Source of the DNA: Chlamydiota bacterium
GTDB taxonomy: Bacteria; Auribacterota; Tritonobacteria; UBA1439
Direction: 5' to 3'
DNA length: 64,000 nt
Assembly (NCBI GenBank): GCA_012729785.1
Contig: JAAYCL010000035.1
Coordinates: 1 to 64,000, forward strand
In this document: in pieces, positions 6,539-40,097 of the stretch
Numbering within the stretch: position 1 is the stretch's first letter
Layout: each line of letters starts with the position of its first letter
Made by a program: the position numbers and the translations under genes
The notes under the pieces: model-generated
Told to the model about the DNA's origin: nothing
Databases searched by the model: none
The model's input: the letters and a program-made list of their open reading frames with translations, nothing else

Positions 6539-7024
6539 TCACCCGTGCACGATCTCCGAGCCCCAGTCGAAATCGGCCGAATCCTCGAACCATTTCGGCC
6601 AGTGCGTGCACCAGCCGGGCACGGCCGCGTTTTGCACCCGCTCCACGGAGGGGTGGTACGGCTTCAGGTCGAGGATCGGCGTCCCGTCCTCGGCGTCGAT
6701 CCACGGGACGCGGATTATGCCGGCGACGCGGTCGATGCCGAGCACGGGCGCCACGCTGGCCGCGATCGGATTGGGCCGGGCGGGCGAGCGCGTCGCGAAC
6801 ACGCCGAGCGTCGCCGGGCCTTTCCGATACGGCCGCTCGCATGTCACCGCGCCGCGCGGGCCGGCGCCGTCGAGCAGGTGGCACCACCATAGGACGTCCA
6901 CGTGGCTGAAGCCCTCCAGGCCCTCGAGGCCCGCCCGGTACTCCTCCGCGATCTCGAGCCGGAAACCGCGCTGGTCCGCCCTGACATACCCTATCGGGGA
7001 TATCCTGAATTCGCCCTTCTTCAT
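6539..7024 (-). CDS. trmO: tRNA m6t6A37 methyltransferase TrmO (TsaA)
   Basis: This 161-residue SAM-dependent enzyme N6-methylates threonylcarbamoyladenosine at position 37 of tRNAs. The TsaA beta-barrel signature is clear: FRISPIGYVR at the N-terminus, FSHVDVLWWCHLL, and the conserved block FATRSPARPNPIAASV that forms the SAM site. It lacks the small C-terminal extension found in E. coli TrmO. ATG 7024 is chosen because the family begins about six residues before the IGYVR motif. A RAYT-type repeat lies 70 bp upstream. Confidence 0.9.
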   Translation of the reverse strand: MKKGEFRISPIGYVRADQRGFRLEIAEEYRAGLEGLEGFSHVDVLWWCHLLDGAGPRGAVTCERPYRKGPATLGVFATRSPARPNPIAASVAPVLGIDRVAGIIRVPWIDAEDGTPILDLKPYHPSVERVQNAAVPGWCTHWPKWFEDSADFDWGSEIVHG

Positions 7025-20148: not shown

Positions 20149-20850
20149 CTACCGCCTCTCGATCTCGAACGAGATCGGCACCCGGATCTCCAGCGGGGAG
20201 GGGCCGAGACGGGGAGGGGGCGGCGGGAACGGGGCGGCGCGGCGCACCGTCATCCCCGCCTCGGCGTCGAGGATCGGCGAGAGGGAGCTTTGCACGACCC
20301 GGACGCCGGAGACGTCCCCGTCGGTGAGTATCCTGAAGGCGACGACGGCCGTTCCGCGCTGCCCCTCGTTGAGCGCCTCGGAGGGGAATCTCTTCCGCGT
20401 GGCGATTTTGCGCCGGACCGCGGCGAGATAGTCGTCGCGCCCCCCGCCCCCCGTCATGGCCGCCCTTCCGTCGTTGCCGCGCGAGGGGAGGGACGCCAGA
20501 AAGGCGGGGGGCGCCGCGCCGCCTTCCGCCTCTTCCCGGGAGGGGGCGGACGCGGCGTCGGGCGCGATCGCCGCCGCGCGGAGGCGCCGCTCGCGGGGCC
20601 TGTCCGTTTCCGGATCGGAGTCCCGCGAAGATTCGGCCTCGCCGACCGGCCGTGGGGAAGCGGGGATAAACGCCGCGCTGGAGGGGGAGGCCGCGGCGGT
20701 CTCGCAGACGGAGCCCACGGTGAAGGCGCACGCCCACTCCTCCTCCGCCGTCCCGGCGGGGAGGCGCGCCGTCCATCCCGCCGCAAACGCGGCGGCGTGG
20801 ACGAGCAGGGAGAGCAGGAGCGCCGCCCCAAGCCTCTTGTCGCCGATCAT
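20149..20850 (-). CDS. tonB: TonB energy-transducing protein
   Basis: A 233-residue TonB. An N-terminal membrane anchor (GAALLLSLLVHAAAFAAGW) with the conserved His lies at residues 8-26. A low-complexity periplasmic spacer follows, and then the C-terminal domain from DDYLAAVRRKIATRKRFPSEA to IRVPISFEI. GGAGGCG upstream of ATG 20850 favours this start over longer versions. It links the ExbB/ExbD motor (28772-29829) to the outer-membrane receptor at 21753-24023. An inverted repeat identical to the one over the receptor promoter lies 90 bp upstream, so tonB is probably in the same regulon although transcribed in the opposite direction. Confidence 0.9.
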   Translation of the reverse strand: MIGDKRLGAALLLSLLVHAAAFAAGWTARLPAGTAEEEWACAFTVGSVCETAAASPSSAAFIPASPRPVGEAESSRDSDPETDRPRERRLRAAAIAPDAASAPSREEAEGGAAPPAFLASLPSRGNDGRAAMTGGGGRDDYLAAVRRKIATRKRFPSEALNEGQRGTAVVAFRILTDGDVSGVRVVQSSLSPILDAEAGMTVRRAAPFPPPPPRLGPSPLEIRVPISFEIERR

Positions 20851-20908
20851 GGCCCGCCTCCGCATCGCCGCATTCGGCGGGGCCCCTCGCGGAGACCCCG
20901 CCCCCCAT

Positions 20909-20923
20909 GGTATGTACCATACC
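20909..20923. repeat. GGTATG-N3-CATACC inverted repeat in the tonB leader region
   Basis: A perfect 6-bp inverted repeat with a 3-bp centre, between the operator at 20941-20966 and the tonB start. On the minus strand TTGCCT (20940-20935) is followed after 18 bp by TACATA, which falls inside this repeat. The palindrome could therefore overlap the tonB -10 and be a second regulatory site. Confidence 0.45.
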
Positions 20924-20940
20924 GGCGCCGGGCGAGGCAA

Positions 20941-20966
20941 CCGATATAGTTGGCCTTGTATATCGG
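20941..20966. promoter_or_regulatory. ModE-like operator upstream of tonB
   Basis: CCGATATA (20941-20948), a 10-bp spacer, then TATATCGG (20959-20966) form a perfect inverted repeat. The same arms with the same spacer length recur at 21657-21682 over the receptor promoter. The half-site CGnTATA agrees with the recalled ModE half-site pattern, and a ModE-type gene lies between the two sites. It is immediately upstream of a possible tonB -35. Confidence 0.75.
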
Positions 20967-21161
20967 GGGCGGCGGGCCCGTTTCCCCGCCCCGCGGGGGC
21001 GTCCGCCGGACCCTTCCGTGAAACCGGATGGCCGGCGGGGCTGTCGTTTCGCGCCGGCGCGCCGGCGCGGGTGCGCCCCCGCGGCCCCCGCAGATCCATG
21101 GCGGATCCCGGTCATGGCGCCCCGGATCGTGAAAACCGGCGTTTCCCCGGGCGCGTTCCCC

Positions 21162-21191
21162 TTGTGCCCGCGCAGGGGGAGGGGGTATACT
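21162..21191 (+). promoter_or_regulatory. Promoter producing a leaderless modE transcript
   Basis: TTGTGC (21162-21167), 18 bp, then TATACT (21186-21191). The modE ATG begins at 21200, eight bases after the -10, so transcription would start at or beside the start codon. No Shine-Dalgarno is present. Confidence 0.6.
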
Positions 21192-21199
21192 GGCGGCGT

Positions 21200-21544
21200 A
21201 TGAAACTCCGCCTGAAGGTGAGCATCGTCAACGCCCGCGGCGAGGGGTTCATGGGTATCGGGCTCGTCTGGCTGCTGCGGCGGGTCAAGCGATTCAAGTC
21301 GATCCATCGAGCCGCCGCGGACATGGAGCTCTCCTACGTCAAGGCGCTGAAGATTCTCAACCGCCTCGAGAAGAACCTGGGGCGCAAGGTCGTCATCCGC
21401 ACGAGGGGCGGCGCGAAACACGGCGGGGCGGAGATCACGCCGTTCGCCGAACGCTACATCGAGGAGTACGACCGGTTCCTCTCCGCGCTCAACGCACACG
21501 CCGAAAAGTCGTTCAGCCGCCGACGCCTCCTCTCCCGTCGCTGA
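21200..21544 (+). CDS. modE: ModE-type winged-helix regulator (single N-terminal domain)
   Basis: A 114-residue protein equal to the DNA-binding domain of ModE: helix-turn-helix FKSIHRAAADMELSYVKALKILNRLEKNLG and the wing VVIRTRGGAKHGGAEITPFAERYIEEYDRF. The C-terminal molbindin (TOBE) domains that bind molybdate in E. coli ModE are absent, so how it senses its signal is not clear. One-domain ModE proteins are known in other bacteria. It lies between two identical inverted repeats that fit a ModE operator and beside a TonB/ECF import locus, so I infer it controls that locus. Its own mRNA appears leaderless. Confidence 0.82.
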   Translation: MKLRLKVSIVNARGEGFMGIGLVWLLRRVKRFKSIHRAAADMELSYVKALKILNRLEKNLGRKVVIRTRGGAKHGGAEITPFAERYIEEYDRFLSALNAHAEKSFSRRRLLSRR

Positions 21545-21648
21545 TCCATCCCCTCCCGCCCTCCGCGCCGCGCGCGGCCTGCGCGCAGACGATCCGCACG
21601 CCCGCCGCGCCGGAAATCGCGGTGTCCAAAAATGTCCGAAAAATAATG

Positions 21649-21682
21649 TTGACACCCCGATATACATTGGTATATATATCGG
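21649..21682 (+). promoter_or_regulatory. Receptor-operon promoter with overlapping ModE-like operator
   Basis: TTGACA (21649-21654) is a perfect -35, and TATATA (starting 21671-21673) gives a 16-18 bp spacer. The inverted repeat CCGATATA (21657-21664), 10 bp, TATATCGG (21675-21682) covers the spacer and -10, so a bound protein would block RNA polymerase. The arms are identical to those upstream of tonB. The transcript would begin near 21685 and carry a 65-base leader to ATG 21753. Confidence 0.8.
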
Positions 21683-21752
21683 CCTCTAAAAATACCGCGC
21701 CGCCCCTGCGCGGGGGGTCGCGGGGGACGCCGGACAGAGGGAGGGGGCGTTG

Positions 21753-24023
21753 ATGCGCACGGGCAGGGTATCCTTGGCGGTGTCGATGATCATCCTTGGT
21801 GTCGCTCTCGCGCCATGCGGCACGGCGTTCTGCCAGGCGGCTTCGGATGCGGCCGACGCGGCGGCCCCGGCGACCGGGCCGGGCACCCCCGCTGCGGATG
21901 CGGCGGCCGTTCAGGACGCGACCGCGGAGACGGGCTCGGATCAGGCGGCCGCCCCCTCCCCGTCGCCCGCCGCCACCCCCGCGGGGCCGCTCTCCTTCAT
22001 CGCCCCCCAGGGCGCCCCCGCCGGTTTCAACGAGAGCGGCTACGTGCCGTACACCCTCGGGGAGATCGTGGTCGCGGGGCAGACGAAGGCGAACGAGATC
22101 GCCCTCTACAACGAGGTCTCCGCGGAGAAGATCGCGGCCACAAACAGCAAGACGGCGGCCGAGGCGCTGCGCTACGCCACGGGCGTGCAGGTGCTGCAGG
22201 GCGCCAAGAACGAGCCCGACGTGAGCATCCACGGGATGGGGCAGGAGAAGGTCCTGGTGCTGATCGACGGCGTCCCGTACTACGAGACGAACTACGGGAA
22301 GCTCAACCTGAGCCAGATCCCCGCCGACATCATCGCCAAGATCGAGGTGATCAAGGGAGCCCCCTCCGTCATCTACGGACCGAACGCGGAGGCAGGCGTC
22401 ATCAACATCGTCACCAAGAACGCCGGGAAGCCGTTCACGCTGGGGAGCAACGTCGAGCTCGGCGAGAAGGACCACAACCGCGTCTCGGCGACGACCGGGG
22501 GCGAGGAGGGGGTCTTCAAATACTGGTTCAATTACACGCACAACGAGACGAGCGCATGGAGGATGTCCGACAACTTCAAGGCGGCCGAGGGGACGATTTT
22601 CAGCAAGCCCGGGGGGCCGCGGCGGGCGGTCATCGACGACGGCGGTTTCCGGAGCAACTCCAGCTTCAAGACCGACAGTTTCTGGGCGAAATTCGGCGTG
22701 ACGCCTGCCGAGGACTCCGAGTATTTCGTGAACGCCTACTGGATCATGTCCAAGTGGGGCTGGCCGCCGTCGGTCGCCGATACCACCGTCTTCCCGGACC
22801 CGCCCGCCTTCTCGCAGTTCGCCCGGTTCGACAGGTACGACGACTGGGGGGTGGATTTCAACGCGAAGCAGCGGATCACGGAGAAGTTCCTCCTGCGCAA
22901 CAACGCCTATTTCCACAACCACCAGGACGCGCTCGTGTCATACACGGACGAGGACTACACGGACAAGCTCGCCCGCAGCGCCTACAGGGACTACTCGGTG
23001 GGGGACAGCGTCATCGCCGACTACGACCTGACGAAGTGGGACACGTTCCGGCTCGCCTTCCACTACAAGATCGACTCGCACCGCGAGCGCGACGACTCGT
23101 ACCTCCCGTTCTCCGAGTCGCTCTCGAACACCGGATCGGTCGCCGCCGAGAACGAGTTCCGTCTCGTCAAGAACCTGACCGCCGTCGCCGGCATGGGCTG
23201 GGACTGGTTCGACGTCTGGAAGTCGCAGCGGAACACGACGAGCAAGATGGACGGGGCGTTCACCGGGCGGCAGAACAACGAGCGGCCGAGCCTGAAGGAT
23301 ATGCTGACGCCGATGGGCGGCCTCGAGTACCGCCTTCCGGACACGACCAAGCTCTTCACCTCGCTGGCGAGGAAGGGGCGCTTCCCCACCCTGCAGCAGC
23401 TCTACTCGAGCAAGGGGGGCAACGCCGACCTCGACCCCGAGACCAGTCTCAACTACACCCTCGGCGCCTCCCGCTCCTTTTTCGACGGGATGGCGTGGGC
23501 GGAGGTCGCGTACTTCAATCACTACCTGCGGGACTACATCAGCCGCGACGGACCCGATCCCACGAATATCTACCGGAACTACGGGAAGATCATCATGAAC
23601 GGCATCGAGCTCAACACGGAGCTCAAACCGTTCGAGCGCGCCGCCTTCACCCTCGGCTATACCTACAACCACGCCCGCGACCGGAGCAGGGGTCACGCCT
23701 CCGACTATGTGGTGGACCTCCCCGCGCACAAGATCGACATGGGCCTCCGCTATACGCTCCCGTACACCGAGACCAGGATCGATCTCACGCAGCAGATCAC
23801 CAGCAAGATATTCTCGCAGCTCCCCACCGCGCAGGACCCGGAGCTTGACGAGGAGGTGGCGAAGGGCTACTATCTCTGCAACGTCAAGTTCACGCAGCCG
23901 CTCACCCGCTATCTCGACGGCTATGTCTCCCTCGAGAACATCTGGGACCGCAACTACGAGACCGTCTACGGCTTCCCGCAGCGGGGGAGGACGGTCCTCT
24001 TCGGGATCGACGCCAAGTACTGA
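21753..24023 (+). CDS. TonB-dependent outer-membrane receptor
   Basis: A 756-residue receptor. After the signal peptide (cleavage near CQA) comes an unusual 70-residue Ala/Pro/Asp-rich segment, then a TonB-box-like LGEIVVAGQT. The plug domain follows (AALRYATGVQVLQG, QEKVLVLIDGVPYYETNYGKL, IEVIKGAPSVIYGPNAEAGVINIVTK), then the beta-barrel ending in GRTVLFGIDAKY. TTG at 21750 is in frame but ATG 21753 is better placed after GAGGGAGGGGG. It heads a nine-gene run that includes an ECF importer, XdhC and ExbBD. The overlapping ModE-like operator suggests molybdate, tungstate or a chelate as cargo; a cobalamin role is less likely because I see no B12 riboswitch. Confidence 0.9.
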   Translation: MRTGRVSLAVSMIILGVALAPCGTAFCQAASDAADAAAPATGPGTPAADAAAVQDATAETGSDQAAAPSPSPAATPAGPLSFIAPQGAPAGFNESGYVPYTLGEIVVAGQTKANEIALYNEVSAEKIAATNSKTAAEALRYATGVQVLQGAKNEPDVSIHGMGQEKVLVLIDGVPYYETNYGKLNLSQIPADIIAKIEVIKGAPSVIYGPNAEAGVINIVTKNAGKPFTLGSNVELGEKDHNRVSATTGGEEGVFKYWFNYTHNETSAWRMSDNFKAAEGTIFSKPGGPRRAVIDDGGFRSNSSFKTDSFWAKFGVTPAEDSEYFVNAYWIMSKWGWPPSVADTTVFPDPPAFSQFARFDRYDDWGVDFNAKQRITEKFLLRNNAYFHNHQDALVSYTDEDYTDKLARSAYRDYSVGDSVIADYDLTKWDTFRLAFHYKIDSHRERDDSYLPFSESLSNTGSVAAENEFRLVKNLTAVAGMGWDWFDVWKSQRNTTSKMDGAFTGRQNNERPSLKDMLTPMGGLEYRLPDTTKLFTSLARKGRFPTLQQLYSSKGGNADLDPETSLNYTLGASRSFFDGMAWAEVAYFNHYLRDYISRDGPDPTNIYRNYGKIIMNGIELNTELKPFERAAFTLGYTYNHARDRSRGHASDYVVDLPAHKIDMGLRYTLPYTETRIDLTQQITSKIFSQLPTAQDPELDEEVAKGYYLCNVKFTQPLTRYLDGYVSLENIWDRNYETVYGFPQRGRTVLFGIDAKY

Positions 24024-24050
24024 GCGGCGAGGACGGCGGCGGGACGGTCT

Positions 24051-25391
24051 ATGCCCCTCACGGTGCGCGATCTTTGTTTCAGGTACGCCCCGTCCGGGGA
24101 GTTCGTCCTCGACCGGCTGAATCTCGACCTCGCCGCGGGGGAGTGCGCGGCGATCACCGGCCCCAACGGGAGCGGGAAGAGCACGCTCGTCGCGGTCCTC
24201 GCCGGGATCATCCCCGCCTTCGTCAAGGGGGAACTCTCCGGATCGATCGAGGGGCCGGGGCCGGACGCGAGACCCGCGGTCATCCTCCAGAACCCCGAGG
24301 CGCAGATCCTCTGCGACGCGGTGGAGGAGGAGATCTCGTTCTTCATCGCCTATTCCGACGGCCGCGCGAGGCCGGAGCCGGCGGCCGGGATCGCCGAGGC
24401 CGCGGGGCTCGGCGACCTGCGGAGGCGGAAGGTCTATCAGCTCTCCTACGGCGAGAAGCAGCGGCTCGTCGCGGCGTGCGCCCTCTGGTGCGGCGACGCG
24501 CGCCTCATCCTGCTCGACGAGCCGTCGGCGCACCTCGACGACGACGGCGCCGAGCGGCTCTCCCGCCTCCTCGCGCGGCGCAAGGAGGGCGGCTCGTCCA
24601 TCCTCCTCATCGGGCACGACTGCGAACGGCTCGGCGGGCTGATCGACCGCTGGTACGTCCTCGAGGGGGGGCGGCTCGTCGAGACGCGGGAGGGCGGGGG
24701 GCGCCGCGTCGCGCGCGGGAAAGGCCTGGTGCGGGGGGGGCGGGCGTTTTCGGAGCTGTGCGCCGTCGAGGAGATCACCTGGAGGAGCGAGACCGGCGAG
24801 GAGGCGTTCAGGGGCTTCTCCTGCGAGATCCGCAGGGGGGAGCTCTGCGGCCTCACCGGCCCGAACGGCTCCGGGAAGAGCTCCCTCGCGAGGATCCTCT
24901 GCGGCGCGGAGCCGCCCGCGGAGGGGACGGTCCGGTGGGAGGGGAGGGACGCGGACCCCGCCCTCCTGCGGAAACGGGTGGCGATGGTGGGCCAGAACCC
25001 GTTCCACCAGCTGCTCCACAAGTCGGTCGGGGCGAACGTCGAGTCGGCGCGCCGCCGGGCGCCCCGGGGCGCGGCCCTCGCGTTCGAGGAGGCGGTCCGT
25101 CTGCTCTCCGTGGGGCCGCTGCTCCGGCGGGACGTCGAGACGCTGAGCTTCGGGGAGGCGCAGAGGGTCGCGTTTCTCTGCGCGCTGCTCCGGGCGCCGG
25201 AGCTGTTGATCGTGGACGAGCTCTTCGCCGCGCTCGACGCGGCGGGGATCGACGCGTTCGTCGCGGCGCTCTCCGCGATGCGGGGGGCGGGGGCGGGCGC
25301 CCTCCTCATCTCGCACCTCGAGGCGGATATCGCCGCGATCGCCGACAGGGTCATCGCCATCGGATCGGGGGACCATGCACCGCGCGGATAA
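24051..25391 (+). CDS. Fused double ATPase of an ECF-type importer
   Basis: A 446-residue protein with two complete ABC ATPase domains in one chain. Domain 1 has Walker A GPNGSGKST (37-45), signature LSYGEKQR (131-138), Walker B LILLDEP (152-158) and the H-loop IGHD. Domain 2 has Walker A GPNGSGKSS (270-278), signature LSFGEAQR (365-372), Walker B LLIVDE (385-390) and SHLE. Conserved Q-loops appear as ILQNPEAQI and VGQNPFHQL, typical of EcfA/CbiO proteins. Fusion of EcfA1 and EcfA2 is known in some ECF transporters. It overlaps the following S-component gene by 17 bases. Confidence 0.88.
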   Translation: MPLTVRDLCFRYAPSGEFVLDRLNLDLAAGECAAITGPNGSGKSTLVAVLAGIIPAFVKGELSGSIEGPGPDARPAVILQNPEAQILCDAVEEEISFFIAYSDGRARPEPAAGIAEAAGLGDLRRRKVYQLSYGEKQRLVAACALWCGDARLILLDEPSAHLDDDGAERLSRLLARRKEGGSSILLIGHDCERLGGLIDRWYVLEGGRLVETREGGGRRVARGKGLVRGGRAFSELCAVEEITWRSETGEEAFRGFSCEIRRGELCGLTGPNGSGKSSLARILCGAEPPAEGTVRWEGRDADPALLRKRVAMVGQNPFHQLLHKSVGANVESARRRAPRGAALAFEEAVRLLSVGPLLRRDVETLSFGEAQRVAFLCALLRAPELLIVDELFAALDAAGIDAFVAALSAMRGAGAGALLISHLEADIAAIADRVIAIGSGDHAPRG

Positions 25392-25953
25392 TGTCAGGGT
25401 CCTCGTCTACACCACGATCTTCGGCGCGCTCTGGGGGGTCGTCGAGACGCTCCTGGGGACGTATCTCCACCTCTTCAACGTCCCGTTCAAAGGCGCTATA
25501 ATGGCGGCGATCGGCGCGATCGTCCTGTGCGCCGAGCGGCTCTATACCCCCTGTTTCGGCGCGACGCTCTCCACGGGGTTCATCGCGATGGTGCTGAAGT
25601 GCTTCTCCGCCGGGACGGTGAGGATCTGGCCGGTGATCGGGATGGGGGTGGAGACGGTTGTGGCCGAGCTGGTGTTCACCGCGCTGGGCGCGGGGCGGAT
25701 CGGCCTCTTCCTCGCCCCGGTCGTCTGCTGCATGGAGGGGGTCCCCCATATGTTCGTCGTCCAGCGCCTGATCTACGGCGAGGGGGTGTTCGACGCCTAC
25801 CTGAAGGTCGCCGCGAAGATGCAGGCGGCGTTCAACCTGAGGGAAGACCTCTGGGCGATGGTGCTGCTCGTCTGGATCGCGGGCCACCTGGCGATCGGGA
25901 TCGCCGCCGGGGTGTGCGCGATCGGCATCGGGGCCTATCTCCGACGGGAATGA
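25375..25953 (+). CDS. Putative substrate-binding (S) membrane component of the ECF importer
   Basis: A 192-residue integral membrane protein with five or six helices, the size and topology of ECF S-components. The N-terminal half (VYTTIFGALWGVVETLLGTYL) resembles the AxxxA-type helix that docks on EcfT. It matches none of the vitamin- or Ni/Co-specific S families I know, and lacks the N-terminal Met-His motif of CbiM. Cysteine and methionine residues in helices (VVCCMEGVPHMF) could line a metal or oxyanion site. It overlaps both the ATPase gene and, by ATGA, the T-component gene, so the subunits are made together. Confidence 0.65.
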   Translation: MHRADNVRVLVYTTIFGALWGVVETLLGTYLHLFNVPFKGAIMAAIGAIVLCAERLYTPCFGATLSTGFIAMVLKCFSAGTVRIWPVIGMGVETVVAELVFTALGAGRIGLFLAPVVCCMEGVPHMFVVQRLIYGEGVFDAYLKVAAKMQAAFNLREDLWAMVLLVWIAGHLAIGIAAGVCAIGIGAYLRRE

Positions 25954-26561
25954 ACAAGCTCGCGCTCGCATTCGCGTCTGTCTGTTTCGGGAGCTCGCTT
26001 CTCGCGGCCGATGCCCGCGTGCGGCTCGCAACCGGGGGCCTTCTCATTCTCGCCGCGGCGTTCGCGGACCGCCGCTCCCTCACCGCGTTCGGCTCCTGGA
26101 AACTCTGGCTCTTCCCGCTGCTCTTCATCGTCGCGTCGCCCCTCTTCCTCGGCGAGCCCCGAACCTCGCTCCTGGGCCTCCCGTACTCCCCGGAGCAGCT
26201 TGGCCGGGGCGCCCTGTTCCTGTTCCACGCCTACTGCTTCGTGGTCTTCGGGGCCCTCGTCTCGGGGGCGTTCTCCCTCCGGGAGGTGATGCGCGCCTCG
26301 GAACGTCTCGGGATGGGCGGGGTGGGCCTGCGGGTCGCGCTCGGCCCGGCGGCGGCGAAGATCGTGAGCCGCATGGTCCGCGAGACGTGGGCCACGTACC
26401 GGATGGAGAGGCCGTCGCTCCTCCCCGCGGCGCGCGACTGCCTCATCCTGTTCGGCGCGATCGCGAGGAACACCGCCTTGATCGCGGAGCGGATCTCGAT
26501 CCTCTTCTACCTCAGAAACGTGCGCGTCGGGGCCGCGGGCAGGGGCGGGAGGGGGCGATGA
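25950..26561 (+). CDS. Putative transmembrane coupling (T) component of the ECF importer
   Basis: A 203-residue membrane protein with four or five helices: an N-terminal pair (ALAFASVCFGSSLLA, LATGGLLILAAAFA), a central LWLFPLLFIVASPLFL and FLFHAYCFVVFGALVSG. A cytoplasmic segment LREVMRASERLGMGG is where EcfT/CbiQ proteins place their ATPase-coupling helices. Canonical ARG motifs are not exact, so this is a divergent CbiQ-like protein. Position between the S-component and DUF364 genes, with ATGA overlaps at both ends, supports the assignment. Confidence 0.65.
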   Translation: MNKLALAFASVCFGSSLLAADARVRLATGGLLILAAAFADRRSLTAFGSWKLWLFPLLFIVASPLFLGEPRTSLLGLPYSPEQLGRGALFLFHAYCFVVFGALVSGAFSLREVMRASERLGMGGVGLRVALGPAAAKIVSRMVRETWATYRMERPSLLPAARDCLILFGAIARNTALIAERISILFYLRNVRVGAAGRGGRGR

Positions 26562-27355
26562 GGGATCTCGGGATCCTGGAGGAGATCTGGAACGGCCTCG
26601 ACGAGGGACTGATCCTCGAGGATCTGTCCATATTCCTGCACTGGATCGTCACGAAGTCGCGGCGCTACGCCTTCTCCCATCTCTTCCAGGGGATGCCGGA
26701 CCCGGATCCGCGGCCTCACCGGGAGACGTGCCTGAAGGGGCTGCTCGGGAAACCGGTCAGGAAGATCGTCCCGGAACTGCTCGGCAGCGGCGACACCCTC
26801 AGGGAGTCGACCGGGATCTCCTGCCTCAACAGCGCGCTCCCGGTCCCGGAAGACGCCGTCGAGGGAAACGCCGTCGAGCCGTTCCTGGAGCGCGCGCGGC
26901 GGATGAAGACCTGCTTCATCGGCCATTTCCCCGACGCCGACCGGTGGCGGCGCGAGGGGTACCCGGTCGACGTCATCGAGCTCTTCCCCGAGCCGGGGGA
27001 TATCCATTGGAACGATTCGCACGCCGCCCTGGCGGCCGCGGAACTCGTCTTCATCACCGGCCTCACCTTGACGAACGGCACGTTCCCGGAGGTGATCCGG
27101 CGCACCCCGAACGCCCGGCACCGGGTGCTGATGGGGCCGACCGTTCCCCTCTCGCCGGTCTTCTTCGCGCACGGGATCGACCTCGTCGGCTCCTCGGTCA
27201 TCCTCGACATCCGACGGGCGCTCGACTGGTGCCGGTGGGGCGCGGGGAGCTGCATCTTCGAGCCGGAGGGGGTCATCCGCCGGGTGAACCTGTTCCGCGA
27301 TCCCGGGCTCAGGGAGGCCGTGACGGGGGGAGAGGCGTCGAGAAAGGCGGTTTGA
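26558..27355 (+). CDS. DUF364 (putative heavy-metal chelation domain) protein
   Basis: A 265-residue cytoplasmic protein. The N-terminal part matches DUF4213 and the C-terminal part DUF364: IGHFPDADRWRREGYPVDVIELFPEPGDIH, VFITGLTLTNGTFPEVIRR and RHRVLMGPTVPLSPVFFAHGIDLVGSSVI. The family has an enolase-like plus Rossmann-like fold and is annotated as a putative heavy-metal chelation domain, with no proven reaction. Its place in a ModE-linked import operon, between the T-component and XdhC genes, suggests handling of the imported metal or release from its carrier. Translationally coupled to the upstream gene. Confidence 0.82.
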   Translation: MRDLGILEEIWNGLDEGLILEDLSIFLHWIVTKSRRYAFSHLFQGMPDPDPRPHRETCLKGLLGKPVRKIVPELLGSGDTLRESTGISCLNSALPVPEDAVEGNAVEPFLERARRMKTCFIGHFPDADRWRREGYPVDVIELFPEPGDIHWNDSHAALAAAELVFITGLTLTNGTFPEVIRRTPNARHRVLMGPTVPLSPVFFAHGIDLVGSSVILDIRRALDWCRWGAGSCIFEPEGVIRRVNLFRDPGLREAVTGGEASRKAV

Positions 27356-27357
27356 GT

Positions 27358-28185
27358 ATGTGGCTGAAGAAGGTCAACGACTGGAAGGCGCAGGGGATCC
27401 CCTGCGCCATGCTCACCATCGTCCAGGCGGAGGGGCCGACCCCGCGCGGGGTGGGGTCCAAGATGGCGGTGAACCTGCACGGCGACAGCGCGGGGTCGAT
27501 CGGCGGGGGGCCGGTGGAGCATCTGGGCCTCGAGGAGGCGAAGAAGGCCATCCGGGACAACCGATGCCGGACGCTGAAATTCTCCCTGCGCGGGGACGAG
27601 TGGCAGGTCACGGAGGAGAAGAAGGTGCGGGGGCTGTGCGGTGGCGCCCTCACCGTCTTCATCGAGCCGATCGTGCCCCGGCACGAGGTCGTCGTCTTCG
27701 GGGCGGGCCACATCGGGGAGAAGCTCGCGGCGTTGTGCGCGGTGTTGAATCTCCCCTGCCGCGTCTACGACAATCGAAAGGATCGTCTCACCGCCGCGCG
27801 CTTTCCGCACGCGCGGAAGCTCATCCACGGCCGTTACGAGGAGCTCGCGAAGAAGATCCCCCTCTCCGCGTCGAGCTACTGCGTCATCGTGACGCACGGC
27901 CACGAGCACGACGAGGAGTGTCTCGAGCTGCTGCTGCAGAACAGGGAGATCCCGTATATCGGCATGATCGGGAGCGCGGCCAAGGTGAAGATACTTGTCG
28001 ACCGCATCCGGTCCCGGGGCACGGAGGTCGACGGCCGGCTCTACAGCCCGGTGGGGCTGAAGATCGGCAGCCATCTGCCGGAGGAGATCGCCCTCTCCAT
28101 CATGGCCGAGATCATGCTGCTCTCCGGGGGGGGATCCGGGGAGCATTACCGAATCAGGTGGCACGAGACGGCGAAGGAACGATGA
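27358..28185 (+). CDS. xdhC: XdhC/CoxI-family protein
   Basis: A 275-residue protein with the XdhC_CoxI N-terminal domain (AMLTIVQAEGPTPRGVGSKMAV, GSIGGGPVEHLGLEEAKKA, GLCGGALTVFIEPI) and the XdhC Rossmann domain (VVVFGAGHIGEKLAALC ... IPYIGMIGSAAKVK). Characterised XdhC binds molybdenum cofactor and delivers it, in sulfurated form, to xanthine dehydrogenase-type enzymes. No molybdenum hydroxylase gene is in the window. Its presence here is independent support for a Mo or W theme in this operon. It overlaps the next gene by ATGA. Confidence 0.9.
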   Translation: MWLKKVNDWKAQGIPCAMLTIVQAEGPTPRGVGSKMAVNLHGDSAGSIGGGPVEHLGLEEAKKAIRDNRCRTLKFSLRGDEWQVTEEKKVRGLCGGALTVFIEPIVPRHEVVVFGAGHIGEKLAALCAVLNLPCRVYDNRKDRLTAARFPHARKLIHGRYEELAKKIPLSASSYCVIVTHGHEHDEECLELLLQNREIPYIGMIGSAAKVKILVDRIRSRGTEVDGRLYSPVGLKIGSHLPEEIALSIMAEIMLLSGGGSGEHYRIRWHETAKER

Positions 28186-28778
28186 GCCCGCGGAAGAAGA
28201 ACATCCTCGTCACGGGCCCCCCCGGGGCGGGGAAGACGACGCTGGTGGAGGCGGTGGTCCGGTCGCTCGGGGTGCGGCCCGGCGGGTACGTCACGAAGGC
28301 GTTCCCCGCGCGCGGGAGGAAGATCCGGTGTGAGATAGAGGCGTTGACGCCCGGGGTGCGCAGGAGGAGGGGGGTAATCGCATCCGTCGACGCGCCGGGG
28401 GCGTTCCGCGTCTGCGGCATGGGGGTGGACGCGGCGGAGATCGAGGCGGTGGGGGCCGCGGCGCTGGAGAACGCGGCGGGCTCGTCGCCGCTCATCGTGA
28501 TGGACGAGATCGGGCAGATGGAGATCGCGAGCCCCCGCTTCCAGGAGGCGGTCATCGCATGCCTGGATTCCGCGACGCCGGTGCTGGGGGTGATCAAGAC
28601 GGCGCGCGGTCCGTTCGTGGACCGCATCAAGGCGCGGCCCGACATCGAGCTGGTGGAGCTGACGGAGGAGAATCGCGGCGCCGCGCGGGAGCGGGTGCGG
28701 GGGCTGCTCGCCGCCCTGGCCGGCCCCGGCGGGAGCGGGTGCGGGGCGCCGCGCGACACGGGGGAGACGGTATGTTGA
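28182..28778 (+). CDS. THEP1-like nucleoside-triphosphatase
   Basis: A 198-residue P-loop protein. Walker A is TGPPGAGKTTLVEAV, and Walker B with the THEP1 signature is LIVMDEIGQMEI. The closing strand TPVLGVIKTARGPFVDRIK also matches the family. THEP1 proteins hydrolyse NTPs in vitro and have no clear cellular role; their fold resembles the GTPase MobB used in molybdenum-cofactor synthesis. Within this operon a role in metal or cofactor processing is plausible. Stop and start codons overlap with both neighbours. Confidence 0.82.
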   Translation: MSPRKKNILVTGPPGAGKTTLVEAVVRSLGVRPGGYVTKAFPARGRKIRCEIEALTPGVRRRRGVIASVDAPGAFRVCGMGVDAAEIEAVGAAALENAAGSSPLIVMDEIGQMEIASPRFQEAVIACLDSATPVLGVIKTARGPFVDRIKARPDIELVELTEENRGAARERVRGLLAALAGPGGSGCGAPRDTGETVC

Positions 28779-29398
28779 CCATGCTCTGCAAAGGCGGCCC
28801 GCTGATGATCCCGATCATCCTCGGGTCGGTCGTTGGGTGGGCGATCGTCATCGAGCGGCTCTGGGTCTTTCGGCGCGTGCGCGAGGACGCGTTCGAATTC
28901 GTGCAGGAGGTGTTCCGGGATATCAGGAAGGGGAGGACCGACCTTGCGCTCGAGCGCTGCCGCCAACTCGGCGCGAATCCGCTGGCCGCCGTCTTCAGGA
29001 TCGGGATCGCGCGGGCGTCGCTCCCCCCCGACCGGCTCGAGAGGGTCATCGAGCAGGCCGGGAACAACCAGGTTATGCGGTTGGAGCGGCGCCTCGGGGC
29101 GCTCGTGGCGATCATCGGCGTCGAGCCGCTCCTCGGGTTTCTGGGGACCATCACGGGACTGATCCGCGCGTTCATGTCGTGGGAACGCGCGGGGGCGCAG
29201 GTGACGGTCAGCGTGCTCGCCGCGGGGATGTACGAGGCGATGCTCACCACGGCGGCGGGCCTGATCGTGGCGATCCCGCTCTACCTCTTCTACGCCTACT
29301 TCGTGAGCCGCATCGCGAACCTCTCCAACGCCCTCACCAACCACTGCATCCAGCTGGTCGAGGCGCTCTCGGAGACGCGGCAGGAGGGGAAACCGTGA
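28772..29398 (+). CDS. exbB: ExbB/TolQ/MotA-family proton channel protein
   Basis: A 208-residue three-helix membrane protein: TM1 MIPIILGSVVGWAIVIERLW, TM2 LVAIIGVEPLLGFLGTITGLI with the conserved Gly-rich and polar core, and TM3 AMLTTAAGLIVAIPLYLFYAYF. With ExbD it forms the proton-driven motor for TonB. Its location inside the receptor/importer operon indicates a dedicated motor rather than a general one. It overlaps exbD by GTGA. Confidence 0.9.
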   Translation: MLTMLCKGGPLMIPIILGSVVGWAIVIERLWVFRRVREDAFEFVQEVFRDIRKGRTDLALERCRQLGANPLAAVFRIGIARASLPPDRLERVIEQAGNNQVMRLERRLGALVAIIGVEPLLGFLGTITGLIRAFMSWERAGAQVTVSVLAAGMYEAMLTTAAGLIVAIPLYLFYAYFVSRIANLSNALTNHCIQLVEALSETRQEGKP

Positions 29399-29829
29399 AG
29401 ATCGCCGGGAGGAGACAACGCCTGGTGGCGCTCGAGTCGGTCGCGATGACCGACATCGTGCTCAACCTGTTCATATTCTTCTTCATCTCGTTCAGTCTGC
29501 TCTACACCCTCAACGCCGACCGGGCGCACGCCATCAGGATCGTGTTGCCCGCCGCGGAGAGTGCCGCCCCGCCCCCGGAGGCCCCGGAGGCGCGCGTGAC
29601 GGTGACCCAATCGGGGGAGCTGTACCTGGACGGGGAGCGGATCGGGGAGGAGGCGCTGGGCGGCGAGATCGCCCTGAGGAAGTCGGCGGATCCCGATCTG
29701 CGGATCTCCCTCCGCGCCGACAGGCAGGCGCCGTTTCAGGAGGCGGTCCGCGTCCTGTCGATCGTCTCGGCGTGCCGGGTGCGCGCGCTCGATATCGCCG
29801 TCGTGAAGGAAGGGGACGCCGACCGCTGA
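29395..29829 (+). CDS. exbD: ExbD/TolR-family proton channel protein
   Basis: A 144-residue protein starting at GTG 29395. The single transmembrane helix carries the essential Asp (AMTDIVLNLFIFFFISFSLL), followed by the periplasmic alpha/beta domain (VTVTQSGELYLDGERI ... DPDLRISLRADRQAPFQEAVRVLS). It completes the ExbBD motor and is the last gene of the operon begun by the receptor. Confidence 0.9.
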   Translation: MKIAGRRQRLVALESVAMTDIVLNLFIFFFISFSLLYTLNADRAHAIRIVLPAAESAAPPPEAPEARVTVTQSGELYLDGERIGEEALGGEIALRKSADPDLRISLRADRQAPFQEAVRVLSIVSACRVRALDIAVVKEGDADR

Positions 29830-36224: not shown

Positions 36225-36487
36225 GCGGATTCAGGTGCCCGGGAACGGAGCGGATCAGGGCGTCGTATCCCGACGAGGTGCCGTGCGCGTGCGGCGGGAA
36301 GGTGGAGCTGTGGCCGGACGAGGACGGGGCGCGGTGCCCGGCGTGCGGCCGCACCGCGAAGAGGGAGATCCCCCCCTCCTGCCTCGACTGGTGCGCGGCG
36401 GCGAGGGGGTGTGTCGGGGAGGAGCGCTACGCGCGGTACCTGCGCGCGAAACAGCACAGGGCGATTGCGTCGCGGGGGAGGAGGTGA
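36221..36487 (+). CDS. Small cysteine-rich metal-binding protein
   Basis: An 88-residue protein with eight cysteines: C6, C22, C24, C39, C42, C54, C58 and C64. PCACGGKVELWPDEDG-ARCPACGRT is a zinc-ribbon-like unit, and PPSCLDWCAAARGCVG is a second cysteine group. No reaction is known to me. It overlaps the ferredoxin gene by ATGA and is followed within five bases by the hemerythrin gene, so it belongs to the same stress operon. Confidence 0.7.
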   Translation: MSGFRCPGTERIRASYPDEVPCACGGKVELWPDEDGARCPACGRTAKREIPPSCLDWCAAARGCVGEERYARYLRAKQHRAIASRGRR

Positions 36488-36491
36488 GGCC

Positions 36492-37049
36492 GTGAAGCCG
36501 ACGGAGCGGTTGAAGGAGGAGCACCAGGGGGTCAAGCTGATGCTGAGGATACTCAAGAAGGCCGCCGAGAGGATGCACGGGGGCACCGCCGTGCCGCACG
36601 AGCACCTCGGACAGATGGCGGAGTTCTTCAGGGTCTTCGTGGATCGGTGCCACCACGCGAAGGAGGAGGAGCTGCTGTTTCCCGCCATGCAGGAGGCGCG
36701 CATCCCGGAAGTCGAGGGGTTGATCCGCGCGCTGCGGGAGGAGCACGAGCGCGGCCGCGGCATCGCCGGATCGTTCGCGGACGCCGTCGTCCGCTGCGGC
36801 GCCGGCGACCACCGGGCCCCGGCGAAGATCGTCGCCGAGGCGCGCGTCTATCGCGACCTGCTTATCGCGCATATCGAGAAAGAGGACACGGTCCTCTACC
36901 CGATGGCCGACGAGAAACTCTCCGGGGAGACGCAGAAGGCCCTTCTCGACGGATTCGAACGGATCGAGGAGGAGCGGATAGGGGCGGGGACGCATGAGAG
37001 GTTCCACGGGGTGCTGCGGCATCTGCACAGCGTATACCTGAAAGGGTAG
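36492..37049 (+). CDS. Hemerythrin-domain protein
   Basis: A 185-residue hemerythrin-like protein starting at GTG 36492. Diiron ligand candidates are H11, H54/H55, E59, H85, H127 and E131, in the motifs EEHQGVKLMLRIL, DRCHHAKEEELLFPAM, REEHERGR and AHIEKEDTVLYPMAD. Such proteins bind oxygen or NO, or help repair iron centres (RIC/YtfE-like). The ScdA N-terminal domain of RIC is absent. Located between the cysteine-rich gene and hcp. Confidence 0.88.
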   Translation: MKPTERLKEEHQGVKLMLRILKKAAERMHGGTAVPHEHLGQMAEFFRVFVDRCHHAKEEELLFPAMQEARIPEVEGLIRALREEHERGRGIAGSFADAVVRCGAGDHRAPAKIVAEARVYRDLLIAHIEKEDTVLYPMADEKLSGETQKALLDGFERIEEERIGAGTHERFHGVLRHLHSVYLKG

Positions 37050-37105
37050 GGGGCACGTACACACACGGAGCGGGCGGCGCATGCCGCGTGCGCGAGGAGG
37101 GGGAG

Positions 37106-38773
37106 ATGACACAGGGGATGTTCTGCTACCAGTGTGAACAGACGGCGAAAGGGTCCGGGTGCACCGTGCAGGGGGTCTGCGGCAAGAACCCGGAGACGGC
37201 GGCGCTCCAGGACCTGCTCATCCAGGCGGCGAGGGGGATCGGCTGGTACGCGCACCTCGCGGCGGGACAGGGGGCGCGCGACCGCTCCATCGGCGTCTTT
37301 ACCGTCCGGGCGCTCTTCACGACCATCACGAACGTGGACTTCGACCCCGAGAGGATCGAGGGGCTGATCCGGGAGGCGGCGCGGGTGAAGGAATCCGCGC
37401 GCGCGCTCGCGGAGAAGGCGGGGGCGCGGATCCCCGGGGAGGTCCCCGCGGCCGCGAAATGGACGCCGGGGGAGAGCCGTGAGAGGCTCCTCGCGCAGGC
37501 GGCGAAGGCCGGTCTCTCGTCTGACCGCCCGGAAAACGAAGATCTGCGCTCGCTCGAGCACCTGCTCCTCTTCGGCCTCAAGGGGATCGCGGCGTACGCC
37601 GACCACGCGCACATCCTCGGCAGCGACTCCGACGAAATCTTTGATTTTCTTCACAAGGCGCTCGCGACGCTGGCGGAGGGGAAGGCCGGCGCGGACGAGC
37701 TCGTCGGGCTCGTGCTGGAGTGCGGGAAAATCAACATCGCCGTGATGGAGCTCCTCTCGCAGGCGCACCGCGCGCGGTTCGGCGTCCCCGTCCCCACGCC
37801 GGTCTCCCTCGGCACCAGGAAGGGGCCGGCGATCATCGTGAGCGGGCACGATCTTCTCGACCTGGAGGAGCTGCTCGCGCAGACGGAGGGGACCGGCGTC
37901 AACGTCTACACGCACGGGGAGATGCTCCCGGCGCACGGCTACCCCCGGCTGAAGAGGCACGCCCACTTCGCCGGGAACTACGGGACCGCCTGGCAGAACC
38001 AGCAGAAGGAGTTCGCGGCAGCGCCCGCCGCGGTGCTGATGACCACCAACTGCATCCAGCGGCCCGCCGCCTCCTACGCCGACCGGATCTTCACCACGGG
38101 GCTCGTCGCGTGGCCGGGCGTCGTCCACATCCCCGACCGGGCACACGGGCGCCCCAAGGACTTCTCCGCGGTGATCGCGCGGGCGAAGGAGCTCGGCGGG
38201 TTCGAGGAGAGGCCGGGGAAGACGGTCACGGTCGGCTTCGGGCACGAGGCGGTGCTCGGCGTCGCGGAGACGGTTGTCAACGCCGTGAAGACGGGGGCGA
38301 TCAGGCGCTTCTTCCTCATCGGCGGCTGCGACGGCGCCAAGCCCGGGCGGAACTACTACACCCGTTTCGCGGAACTCGTGCCGAAGGACTGCGTCATCCT
38401 CACACTGGCGTGCGGGAAGTACCGGTTCCACACGCTTGACGCCGGCGACATCGGCGGGGTGCCGCGCCTTCTCGACATGGGGCAGTGCAACGACGCCTAC
38501 TCGGCGGTGAAGGTCGCGCAGGCGCTCGCGGGGGCGTTCAGCTGCGGGGTGAACGATTTGCCGCTCACCTTCATCCTCTCCTGGTACGAGCAGAAGGCGG
38601 TGGCGATCCTGCTGTCGCTGCTCTATCTCGGCATCCGGGGAATGCGGCTGGGGCCGTCGCTGCCGGCGTTCGTCTCCCCGGGGATCCTGAAGGTGCTGGT
38701 GGAGCGATTCGACATCAGGCCGATCTCGGGCGATCCGGAAAAGGATCTGGCGGAGGCGCTGGGCGGCAGGTAA
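37106..38773 (+). CDS. hcp: Hybrid-cluster protein (hydroxylamine reductase / NO reductase)
   Basis: A 555-residue prismane protein. N-terminal cysteines C7, C10, C19 and C25 have the C-x2-C-x8-C-x5-C spacing seen in strict anaerobes, ligating a [4Fe-4S] cluster. Ligands of the hybrid 4Fe-2S-2O cluster appear as GEMLPAHGYP, TTNCIQRP, GGCDGAKPGRNYY, LACGKYRFH, MGQCNDAYSA and WYEQKAVAILL. Hcp reduces NO or hydroxylamine and acts in protein S-nitrosylation. GAGGAGGGGGAG precedes ATG 37106. Gene order with an Rrf2 regulator, ferredoxin and FprA marks a nitrosative-stress cluster. Confidence 0.96.
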   Translation: MTQGMFCYQCEQTAKGSGCTVQGVCGKNPETAALQDLLIQAARGIGWYAHLAAGQGARDRSIGVFTVRALFTTITNVDFDPERIEGLIREAARVKESARALAEKAGARIPGEVPAAAKWTPGESRERLLAQAAKAGLSSDRPENEDLRSLEHLLLFGLKGIAAYADHAHILGSDSDEIFDFLHKALATLAEGKAGADELVGLVLECGKINIAVMELLSQAHRARFGVPVPTPVSLGTRKGPAIIVSGHDLLDLEELLAQTEGTGVNVYTHGEMLPAHGYPRLKRHAHFAGNYGTAWQNQQKEFAAAPAAVLMTTNCIQRPAASYADRIFTTGLVAWPGVVHIPDRAHGRPKDFSAVIARAKELGGFEERPGKTVTVGFGHEAVLGVAETVVNAVKTGAIRRFFLIGGCDGAKPGRNYYTRFAELVPKDCVILTLACGKYRFHTLDAGDIGGVPRLLDMGQCNDAYSAVKVAQALAGAFSCGVNDLPLTFILSWYEQKAVAILLSLLYLGIRGMRLGPSLPAFVSPGILKVLVERFDIRPISGDPEKDLAEALGGR

Positions 38774-38885
38774 CCGGCGATCCGCCGGGCGGACATACGT
38801 CAACGGAAGGCGGCGTTTGGCCATTGACGCGCCGCGCGTCCGCCCGCACAATGGGCGCGTGTGCGCCGGCGCGGAGGGCTTTGCC

Positions 38886-40097
38886 ATGACGGACTCGTTC
38901 AGCGCGGTTCAGGTGACCGATCGGGTGTACTGGGTCGGGGCGACGGATTGGGCGGTGCGCAATTTCCACGGCTACGCCACGACCCGGGGCACCACCTACA
39001 ACGCCTACCTGATCGTCGCCGACAAGATCATCCTGATTGACACGGTCAAGGCCCCGTTCAGGGACGAGATGTTCGCCCGCATCGCCTCCGTGGTCCACCC
39101 CGGGCGGATCGACTATATCATCTCGAACCATTCCGAGATGGACCACTCCGGCTGCCTGCCCGAGACGATCGCCGCGGTGAAGCCCGACGCGGTCTTCGCC
39201 TCCGCGATGGGGGTGAAGGCGCTCGCGGACCATTTCCGCCTCGGCCCCGGCCTCGTCGCGGTGAAGAACGGCGAGCAGATGAACCTCGGCGGGGTGAACC
39301 TCTCCTTCCACGAGACGCGGATGCTCCACTGGCCGGACAGCATGTTCACCTGGATGCCCAACGACCGCCTCCTCTTCTCGCAGGACGCGTTCGGGATGCA
39401 CCTGGCCTCCGGCGAGCGTTTCGACGACGAGCTCCCCGCGGATCTGCTGGAGCGGGAGGCGGCGAAGTACTACGCGAACATCCTGATGCCGTTCTCCCCG
39501 CTCGTCGCGGCCCTCCTCGGAAAACTGCCGTCCCTCGGCATCTCCCCGCGGATCATCGCCCCCGACCACGGGCCGATCTGGCGGGGCAACGTCGCGGGGA
39601 TCGTCGAACGCTATGCGGCGTGGGCGAGGCGGACGCCGAGGCGCAAGGCGGTGATCATCTACGACACGATGTGGGGGAGCACGCACCGGATGGCCCGTCT
39701 GATCGGCGAGGGGGTCGTCGCGGGCGGGGCGGAGGTGAAGATCCTCCCGCTCGGGGCGAATCACCGGAGCGACGCGGCGACCGAGCTGCTCGATGCGGGC
39801 GCCCTCCTCGTCGGCTCGCCGACGCTCAACAACGACATCTTCCCGACCGTGGCGGACGCCCTCTGCTATCTGAAGGGGCTGAAGCCCAAGGGGCTCGTCG
39901 GCGCGGCGTTCGGCTCCTACGGCTGGAGCGGCGAGTCGGTGAAGATCCTGAACGGCCTCCTGAAAGAGATGCAGGTGGGGCTCGTCGGCGATGGCGTGAG
40001 CGTCCGCTATGTCCCCGATGACGGGGCGCTTGCCGAATGCGCGGCGCTCGGGCGCCGCGTCGCGGAGACGCTCCCCGCAGGCGAGGGGAAGGCGTAG
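38886..40097 (+). CDS. fprA: Flavodiiron protein FprA (oxygen/NO reductase)
   Basis: A 403-residue protein with an N-terminal metallo-beta-lactamase-like diiron domain and a C-terminal flavodoxin. Diiron ligands are H82, E84 and D86 with H87 in SNHSEMDHSG, then His in MLHWPDSMFT, Asp in FSQDAFG and His in APDHGPIWRG. The flavodoxin begins at VIIYDTMWGSTHRMARLIGEG. No rubredoxin domain is fused, so the Hrb-type fusion at 18616-19335 is a likely donor. It reduces oxygen to water or NO to nitrous oxide. ATG 38886 fits the family start. Confidence 0.95.
   Translation: MTDSFSAVQVTDRVYWVGATDWAVRNFHGYATTRGTTYNAYLIVADKIILIDTVKAPFRDEMFARIASVVHPGRIDYIISNHSEMDHSGCLPETIAAVKPDAVFASAMGVKALADHFRLGPGLVAVKNGEQMNLGGVNLSFHETRMLHWPDSMFTWMPNDRLLFSQDAFGMHLASGERFDDELPADLLEREAAKYYANILMPFSPLVAALLGKLPSLGISPRIIAPDHGPIWRGNVAGIVERYAAWARRTPRRKAVIIYDTMWGSTHRMARLIGEGVVAGGAEVKILPLGANHRSDAATELLDAGALLVGSPTLNNDIFPTVADALCYLKGLKPKGLVGAAFGSYGWSGESVKILNGLLKEMQVGLVGDGVSVRYVPDDGALAECAALGRRVAETLPAGEGKA

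Follow-up and report, generated by a model that had tools for sequence, protein, structure and literature searches.

The locus considered here occupies positions 20149-29829 of a 64,000-nt stretch (JAAYCL010000035.1, positions 1-64,000; 'the window' below means this whole stretch) and carries tonB, modE and an operon which we read, with a probability of roughly 0.6, as a salvage importer for the finished, molybdenum-loaded molybdenum cofactor (Moco). A TonB-dependent receptor, powered by TonB-ExbB-ExbD, would take the molybdenum-loaded pterin (Mo-molybdopterin or a dinucleotide form) through the outer membrane, and an energy-coupling factor (ECF) transporter, composed of an S component, a T component and a double ATPase, would carry it over the inner membrane. 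XdhC, together with a DUF364 protein and an NTPase, would receive and process the imported cofactor and, after MocA-type addition of cytidine monophosphate where needed, deliver it to xanthine-dehydrogenase (XDH)-family enzymes encoded elsewhere; a one-domain ModE would regulate tonB and the operon through two boxes. The computational basis of this proposal lies in the gene content, the ECF folds, the boxes, the absence of ModA, MoaA, MoaC and MoeA, the retention of Moco enzymes and the co-occurrence of these with the S component. An earlier, sequence-only reading of the same DNA had seen in it a continuous route through both membranes for molybdate, tungstate or a metallophore complex. It is partly supported: the TonB-to-ECF route stands and the molybdenum link of the operon is confirmed by independent evidence, but molybdate or tungstate as the cargo is not supported, because the genome lacks MoaA, MoaC and MoeA yet retains Moco enzymes.

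Moco enzymes and the missing synthesis pathway

The genome to which the window belongs (2.59 Mb, 96.6% complete) contains no MoaA, MoaC or MoeA (MoaD, MoaE, MogA and TupA were not searched for). ModA is absent too: no TIGR01256 match was obtained at E<=10, while control genomes were positive. In the genus sister (G024), ModA, MoaC and MoaA are lacking as well, and MoeA is represented by an insignificant fragment only (E=0.09). ModA and MoaC are present in every one of the four remaining members of the family, and the two that were tested (G022 and G023) also have MoaA and MoeA. An assembly gap is an unlikely explanation, since G022 carries each of the four genes on a contig of its own and two genomes of the genus lack them; if independence is assumed, the chance of losing all four from an assembly 96.6% complete is about 1.4e-6.

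Three full-length Moco enzymes of the XDH family are nevertheless encoded in this genome. One of them aligns end to end with 4-hydroxybenzoyl-CoA reductase (PDB 1rm6), through the GGAFGGK and GPFGARSVAE loops, and a gene for a MocA-like cytidylyltransferase is found near one of the three. Their identities to the G022 trio are 84, 78 and 84%, with ratios of nonsynonymous to synonymous substitution (dN/dS) of 0.12-0.14, and the one pair tested within the pathway-less genus gave 0.15; these ratios indicate that the three enzymes are under purifying selection. Contamination and gene decay are rejected as explanations, given the long contigs, the orthologous trio and the dN/dS of about 0.12-0.15. 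Enzymes that are selected in the absence of MoaA, MoaC and MoeA would need a ready-made cofactor, unless a non-homologous route exists, and this cofactor must already carry molybdenum, because MoeA performs the molybdenum insertion step.

The same absences mean that imported molybdate could not become cofactor by the known route. This weakens the possibility that the ECF importer handles the molybdate or tungstate ion and replaces modABC, a reading with which the ModE boxes, the lack of ModA in the genus, XdhC and DUF364 would all agree, as would two relatives described below, in which a fused S gene accompanies modE and DUF364 (L080) or DUF364 (L070, in a genome that has MoaC). However, the genus does not have MoaA, MoaC and MoeA to use the metal, and a small ion normally does not require a TonB receptor. 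The expectation that the same gene order would recur elsewhere with ModE in place of modABC held for the order, which is complete in a second genus, and for the genus itself, which has no ModA, but not for G022, which retains ModA alongside the operon. We therefore regard a molybdate or tungstate importer as unlikely.

Layout of the locus and its predicted transport machinery

Open reading frame calls, Pfam and NCBIfam profile searches and structure models of S and T recovered all eleven genes named in the sequence-only reading, in the order tonB (divergent), modE, TonB receptor, fused EcfA, S, T, DUF364, xdhC, NTPase_1, exbB and exbD (Table 1). The overlapping starts and stops from the ATPase gene to exbD were also found as described (17, 4 and 4 bp, a 2-bp gap before xdhC, then 4, 7 and 4 bp), and a 27-bp gap separates the receptor gene from that of the ATPase. 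A refinement is that tonB, on the opposite strand, forms its own unit and most likely starts at 20850. A chance or isolated gene order is ruled out, because the complete order was found again in a second genus (locus L004, genome G022); it is partial in the genus sister (locus L006, genome G024).

Table 1. Features of the locus in window coordinates (aa, amino acids; pLDDT, predicted local distance difference test score)
Feature	Position	Strand	Evidence
tonB, 233 aa	20149..20850	-	TonB_C E=2.5e-16; L004 homologue 41% identity
ModE-type box upstream of tonB, CGATATA-N10-TATATCG	20942..20965	.	0 mismatches; counterparts L006:369, L004:4071
modE, DNA-binding domain only, 114 aa	21200..21544	+	TIGR00637 E=1.1e-13 (below curated cut-off), residues 18-103
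ModE-type box upstream of receptor operon, just downstream of TTGACA hexamer	21658..21681	.	0 mismatches; counterparts L006:1094 (0 mismatches), L004:4686 (1 mismatch)
TonB-dependent receptor, 757 aa	21750..24023	+	Plug E=2.7e-22, barrel E=4e-29
Fused EcfA-EcfA double ATPase, 446 aa	24051..25391	+	two ABC_tran domains E=2.3e-47
Predicted S component, unnamed family	25375..25953	+	model pLDDT 88.9; top PDB match 5edl
Predicted T component	25950..26561	+	model pLDDT 87; top six PDB matches are ECF T subunits
DUF364 protein	26558..27355	+	PF04016 E=8e-33; PDB 3l5o E=5e-13
xdhC	27358..28185	+	XdhC_CoxI E=5e-18, XdhC_C E=5e-35; NF045664 E=8e-59, below its cut-off
NTPase_1 (THEP1-like) protein	28182..28778	+	PF03266 E=1.2e-36
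exbB	28772..29398	+	MotA_ExbB E=1.5e-26
exbD	29395..29829	+	ExbD_2 E=5.8e-8

Neither S nor T had a Pfam or NCBIfam match over cut-off, and a search of PDB sequences with the S profile gave nothing meaningful. The structure model of S, built on 15 relatives, was closest to 5edl, an ECF S component (probability 1.00, template modelling score 0.58), with TmRibU at a probability of 0.77; for T, modelled on 12 relatives, the top six PDB matches were T subunits of folate or pantothenate ECF transporters or of a solitary ECF module (best probability 1.00). The Foldseek E-values are weak for both, and the two proteins are taken as probable S and T components because these top matches agree with the operon context. 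In the fused ATPase, both sets of Walker A, signature and Walker B motifs are complete, i.e. there are two intact ATP sites; its match to the ECF_ATPase models (E=1e-50) is under cut-off. The operon encodes no periplasmic binding protein, and the proposal of an importer working without ModA agrees with the absence of ModA from the whole genome. A search of viral contigs with S gave no match.

These features recall the group II-like ECF vitamin transporters (YkoE, RibU, FolT, PanT), with which the operon shares the S fold (5edl, TmRibU), the T fold (folate and pantothenate ECF), paired EcfA ATPases and the lack of a binding protein. The differences are that S belongs here to an unnamed family without Pfam or NCBIfam match, that the ATPases are fused, and that the operon combines dedicated genes with a TonB receptor, ModE and XdhC. 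The ECF and TonB parts are of known kinds; what is new is the family of S, the way in which the parts are combined and the proposed cargo.

The plug-barrel receptor is accompanied by profile-matched TonB, ExbB and ExbD, and a large, rare ligand would be a more fitting substrate for such a receptor than molybdate. The receptor's nearest NCBIfam model is a B12 receptor, matched weakly and far under cut-off. One could hence imagine an ordinary cobalamin, cobalt or nickel importer that lies near modE by accident, all the more so as a CbiM/CbiQ/CbiO-type cobalt/nickel ECF operon (L004:469-3158) adjoins the locus in G022. That operon is, however, separate and convergent to tonB, and it is absent from our window; no Rfam family exceeded its cut-off in the 64 kb, so the cobalamin riboswitch that the sequence-only reading had named as a contrary sign was not found, and the operon itself has no cobalt or B12 genes. 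With the ModE boxes and the link with Moco enzymes in addition, this explanation is hardly credible and we reject it. The resemblance to cobalamin uptake by BtuB-TonB with BtuCDF or a vitamin ECF transporter is one of principle: a TonB receptor feeds an inner-membrane importer, the cofactor is large and metal-bearing, and salvage takes the place of synthesis. Here, in contrast, riboswitch and B12 genes are lacking, and regulator, partners and co-occurrence indicate the molybdenum cofactor.

For DUF364, a flavin or pterin derivative was predicted as ligand in the crystal-structure paper, which supports a pterin at this step; the gene neighbourhoods reported there include molybdate, tungstate, iron and vanadium transport (PMC2954201). 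Such neighbourhoods, and the presence of a TonB receptor, would also be compatible with import of a molybdenum metallophore, a siderophore-like complex on whose chelator DUF364 would act. But Moco synthesis would be missing likewise, no chelator synthesis genes were noticed in the operon, and vitamins are the normal ECF cargo, which makes a metallophore quite improbable.

Probable control by ModE

The modE product ends after its winged-helix, DNA-binding domain, the molybdate-binding (Mop) domains being absent; one-domain forms of ModE are known in Desulfovibrio (PMC545781). The box upstream of tonB reads CGATATAGTTGGCCTTGTATATCG and the one upstream of the receptor gene CGATATACATTGGTATATATATCG. 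Both fit the 24-bp frame of the E. coli-type operator, CGNTATATA-N6-TATATANCG, with CG-N-TATA half-sites; the E. coli ModE consensus is ATCGNTATATA-N6-TATATANCGAT (PMC545781). Apart from these two boxes, the 2.59-Mb genome has no perfect match to CGATATA-N10-TATATCG, and the reversed control gave 0. Both are conserved in the genus sister, and the other genus has boxes at the two corresponding positions, where the spacers differ and the degenerate pattern is matched with 0 and 1 mismatch. Judged from this uniqueness and conservation, tonB and the operon, and little else in the genome, are very likely under the control of ModE, and the molybdenum control postulated in the sequence-only reading gains support. 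Since the second box stands directly behind a TTGACA hexamer, ModE would probably act by repression in the replete state; a sigma-70 scan of the intergenic region returned no site over threshold. With the ModABC/ModE system, the locus has in common the ModE DNA-binding domain and the 24-bp boxes, but it differs in having no ModA, a ModE without molybdate-binding domain, and an ECF plus TonB importer.

Two further observations concern this region. Past the second ModE box, and before the receptor gene starts, there is a terminator-like hairpin that is oriented antisense (21713-21695, minus strand). Besides, modE and the receptor gene are nearly identical between the two species of the genus (L006:635-3462 versus window 21200-24023), with a synonymous divergence (dS) of about 0.06, whereas EcfAA, S and one XDH gene of the same species pair show a dS of 0.36-0.46, the dN/dS of S (0.58) and EcfAA (0.47) being raised. 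The contrast in dS suggests a recent exchange of the modE-receptor segment.

Relatives, co-occurrence and the weight of the salvage reading

Members of the S family occur in 3 of the 44 genomes of the same phylum and in 51 of 295 Elusimicrobiota genomes. In the latter phylum, every one of the 51 S-bearing genomes carries Moco hydroxylase genes, as compared to 92 of 295 overall (hypergeometric P=4e-32). MoaC is absent from 11 of the 12 genomes with the S type closer to ours, compared with 24 of the remaining 80 genomes that carry the enzymes (P=7e-5); when genomes are matched for size, MoaC is present in 0 of 11 closer-S genomes and in 21 of 38 others (P=1e-3). In G044 and G045, MoaA and MoeA are absent as well. 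On the S tree, the MoaC label has to change about five times, and the pathway-less genus stands next to the pathway-bearing G022, an arrangement which a gain of the importer followed by loss of synthesis would fit.

The neighbourhoods of the Elusimicrobiota genes are in line with the salvage reading. In L067, the order is TrmO_N-T-S-EcfAA-NTPase, and an operon that contains MocA, xdhC and XDH runs divergently to it; in L071 and L072, genes for the receptor, TrmO_N, EcfAA, S and a T-NTPase fusion are followed by xdhC, and L071 has in addition XDH and a MobA-like gene. An XDH-type gene of our genus sister (L096:7011-9254) is 78% identical to an Elusimicrobiota gene (L071), through inter-phylum transfer or contamination. 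NTPase_1 is fused in Elusimicrobiota to T or to S-T: L080 combines modE and DUF364 with a single chain of S, T and NTPase_1 (L080:3023-4801, minus strand) and no ModE-type box was found there, while L070 has DUF364 with an S-T-NTPase_1 fusion (L070:10693-12360, plus strand) about 3 kb from moaC. No EcfA gene adjoins either single-chain gene. Weaker S matches occur in 39 Elusimicrobiota genomes, most of them within long S-T-NTPase_1-type frames. The fused S type often keeps MoaC company, and its cargo may therefore be the same as here or molybdate.

The strict co-occurrence of the S family with XDH-type enzymes could also mean that the importer brings in their substrate, a purine or other heterocycle, and two fused S genes (L068, L069) do lie near genes for purine breakdown or amidohydrolases. 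However, the ModE boxes, XdhC and DUF364 indicate a cofactor or a metal, the loss of MoaC would be left unexplained, and uptake of small heterocycles requires no TonB receptor; import of an enzyme substrate is accordingly very unlikely.

Several points weigh against import of the finished cofactor. The genomes are mostly metagenome assemblies, and what was counted is genomes rather than independent events; in the small phylum of our genome, S and MoaC taken by themselves show no significant association (P=0.15). G022 and G321 have both the closer S type and MoaC, so that the importer is not confined to genomes without synthesis, and MoaC is retained in the majority of genomes that have the fused S type. 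The negative searches covered MoaA, MoaC, MoeA and ModA, leaving MoaD, MoaE, MogA and TupA outside, and a non-homologous route to Moco could exist. Moco transport itself, the exact form of the cargo, the sequence of events in the cytoplasm and the sign of regulation are what we infer from these genes and their company. Finally, Moco in its free state is sensitive to oxidation (PMC9370521), so that the idea can apply only where oxygen is absent, or to forms of Moco that are stabilised or derived from proteins.

In the literature searched, there was no paper on a bacterial Moco importer or on an ECF importer for molybdenum. The nearest case is that of Caenorhabditis elegans, which takes up dietary Moco by a membrane-crossing mechanism not known there (PMC9793310); the likeness is that a finished cofactor is obtained from other organisms, but this is an animal, and the literature searched offers no bacterial counterpart. 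We would set slightly better than even odds on the operon being the first dedicated importer of finished Moco in any organism, one that works with a new ECF S family under a ModE switch, occurs in two or more phyla and takes several architectures, among them the S-T-NTPase single chain; Moco would then be a vitamin-like good traded among bacteria. If finished Moco is indeed imported, then an unstable cofactor is shared between bacteria as vitamin B12 is, genomes with Moco enzymes but without synthesis pathway are accounted for, and roles can be assigned to DUF364, to the NTPase_1 group of the operon and to the unnamed S family. The locus would also provide the first protein candidates for the passage of Moco through membranes, a question open for the nematode too.

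Some minor observations may be added. The window contains a TrmO_N-domain gene (6542-7024, minus strand, E=6e-26) at 13 kb from the operon; as TrmO_N relatives sit inside the S operons of L067, L071 and L072, its predicted product may be part of the same function. In one Elusimicrobiota lineage (L007:11180-12307, L075, L076, L078, L079), an anmK-like gene with no obvious molybdenum link directly follows and overlaps T. At 36411-40094 of the window, hemerythrin, hybrid-cluster (prismane) and flavodiiron-type genes stand in a row, an oxygen/nitric oxide stress cluster that fits an anaerobe.

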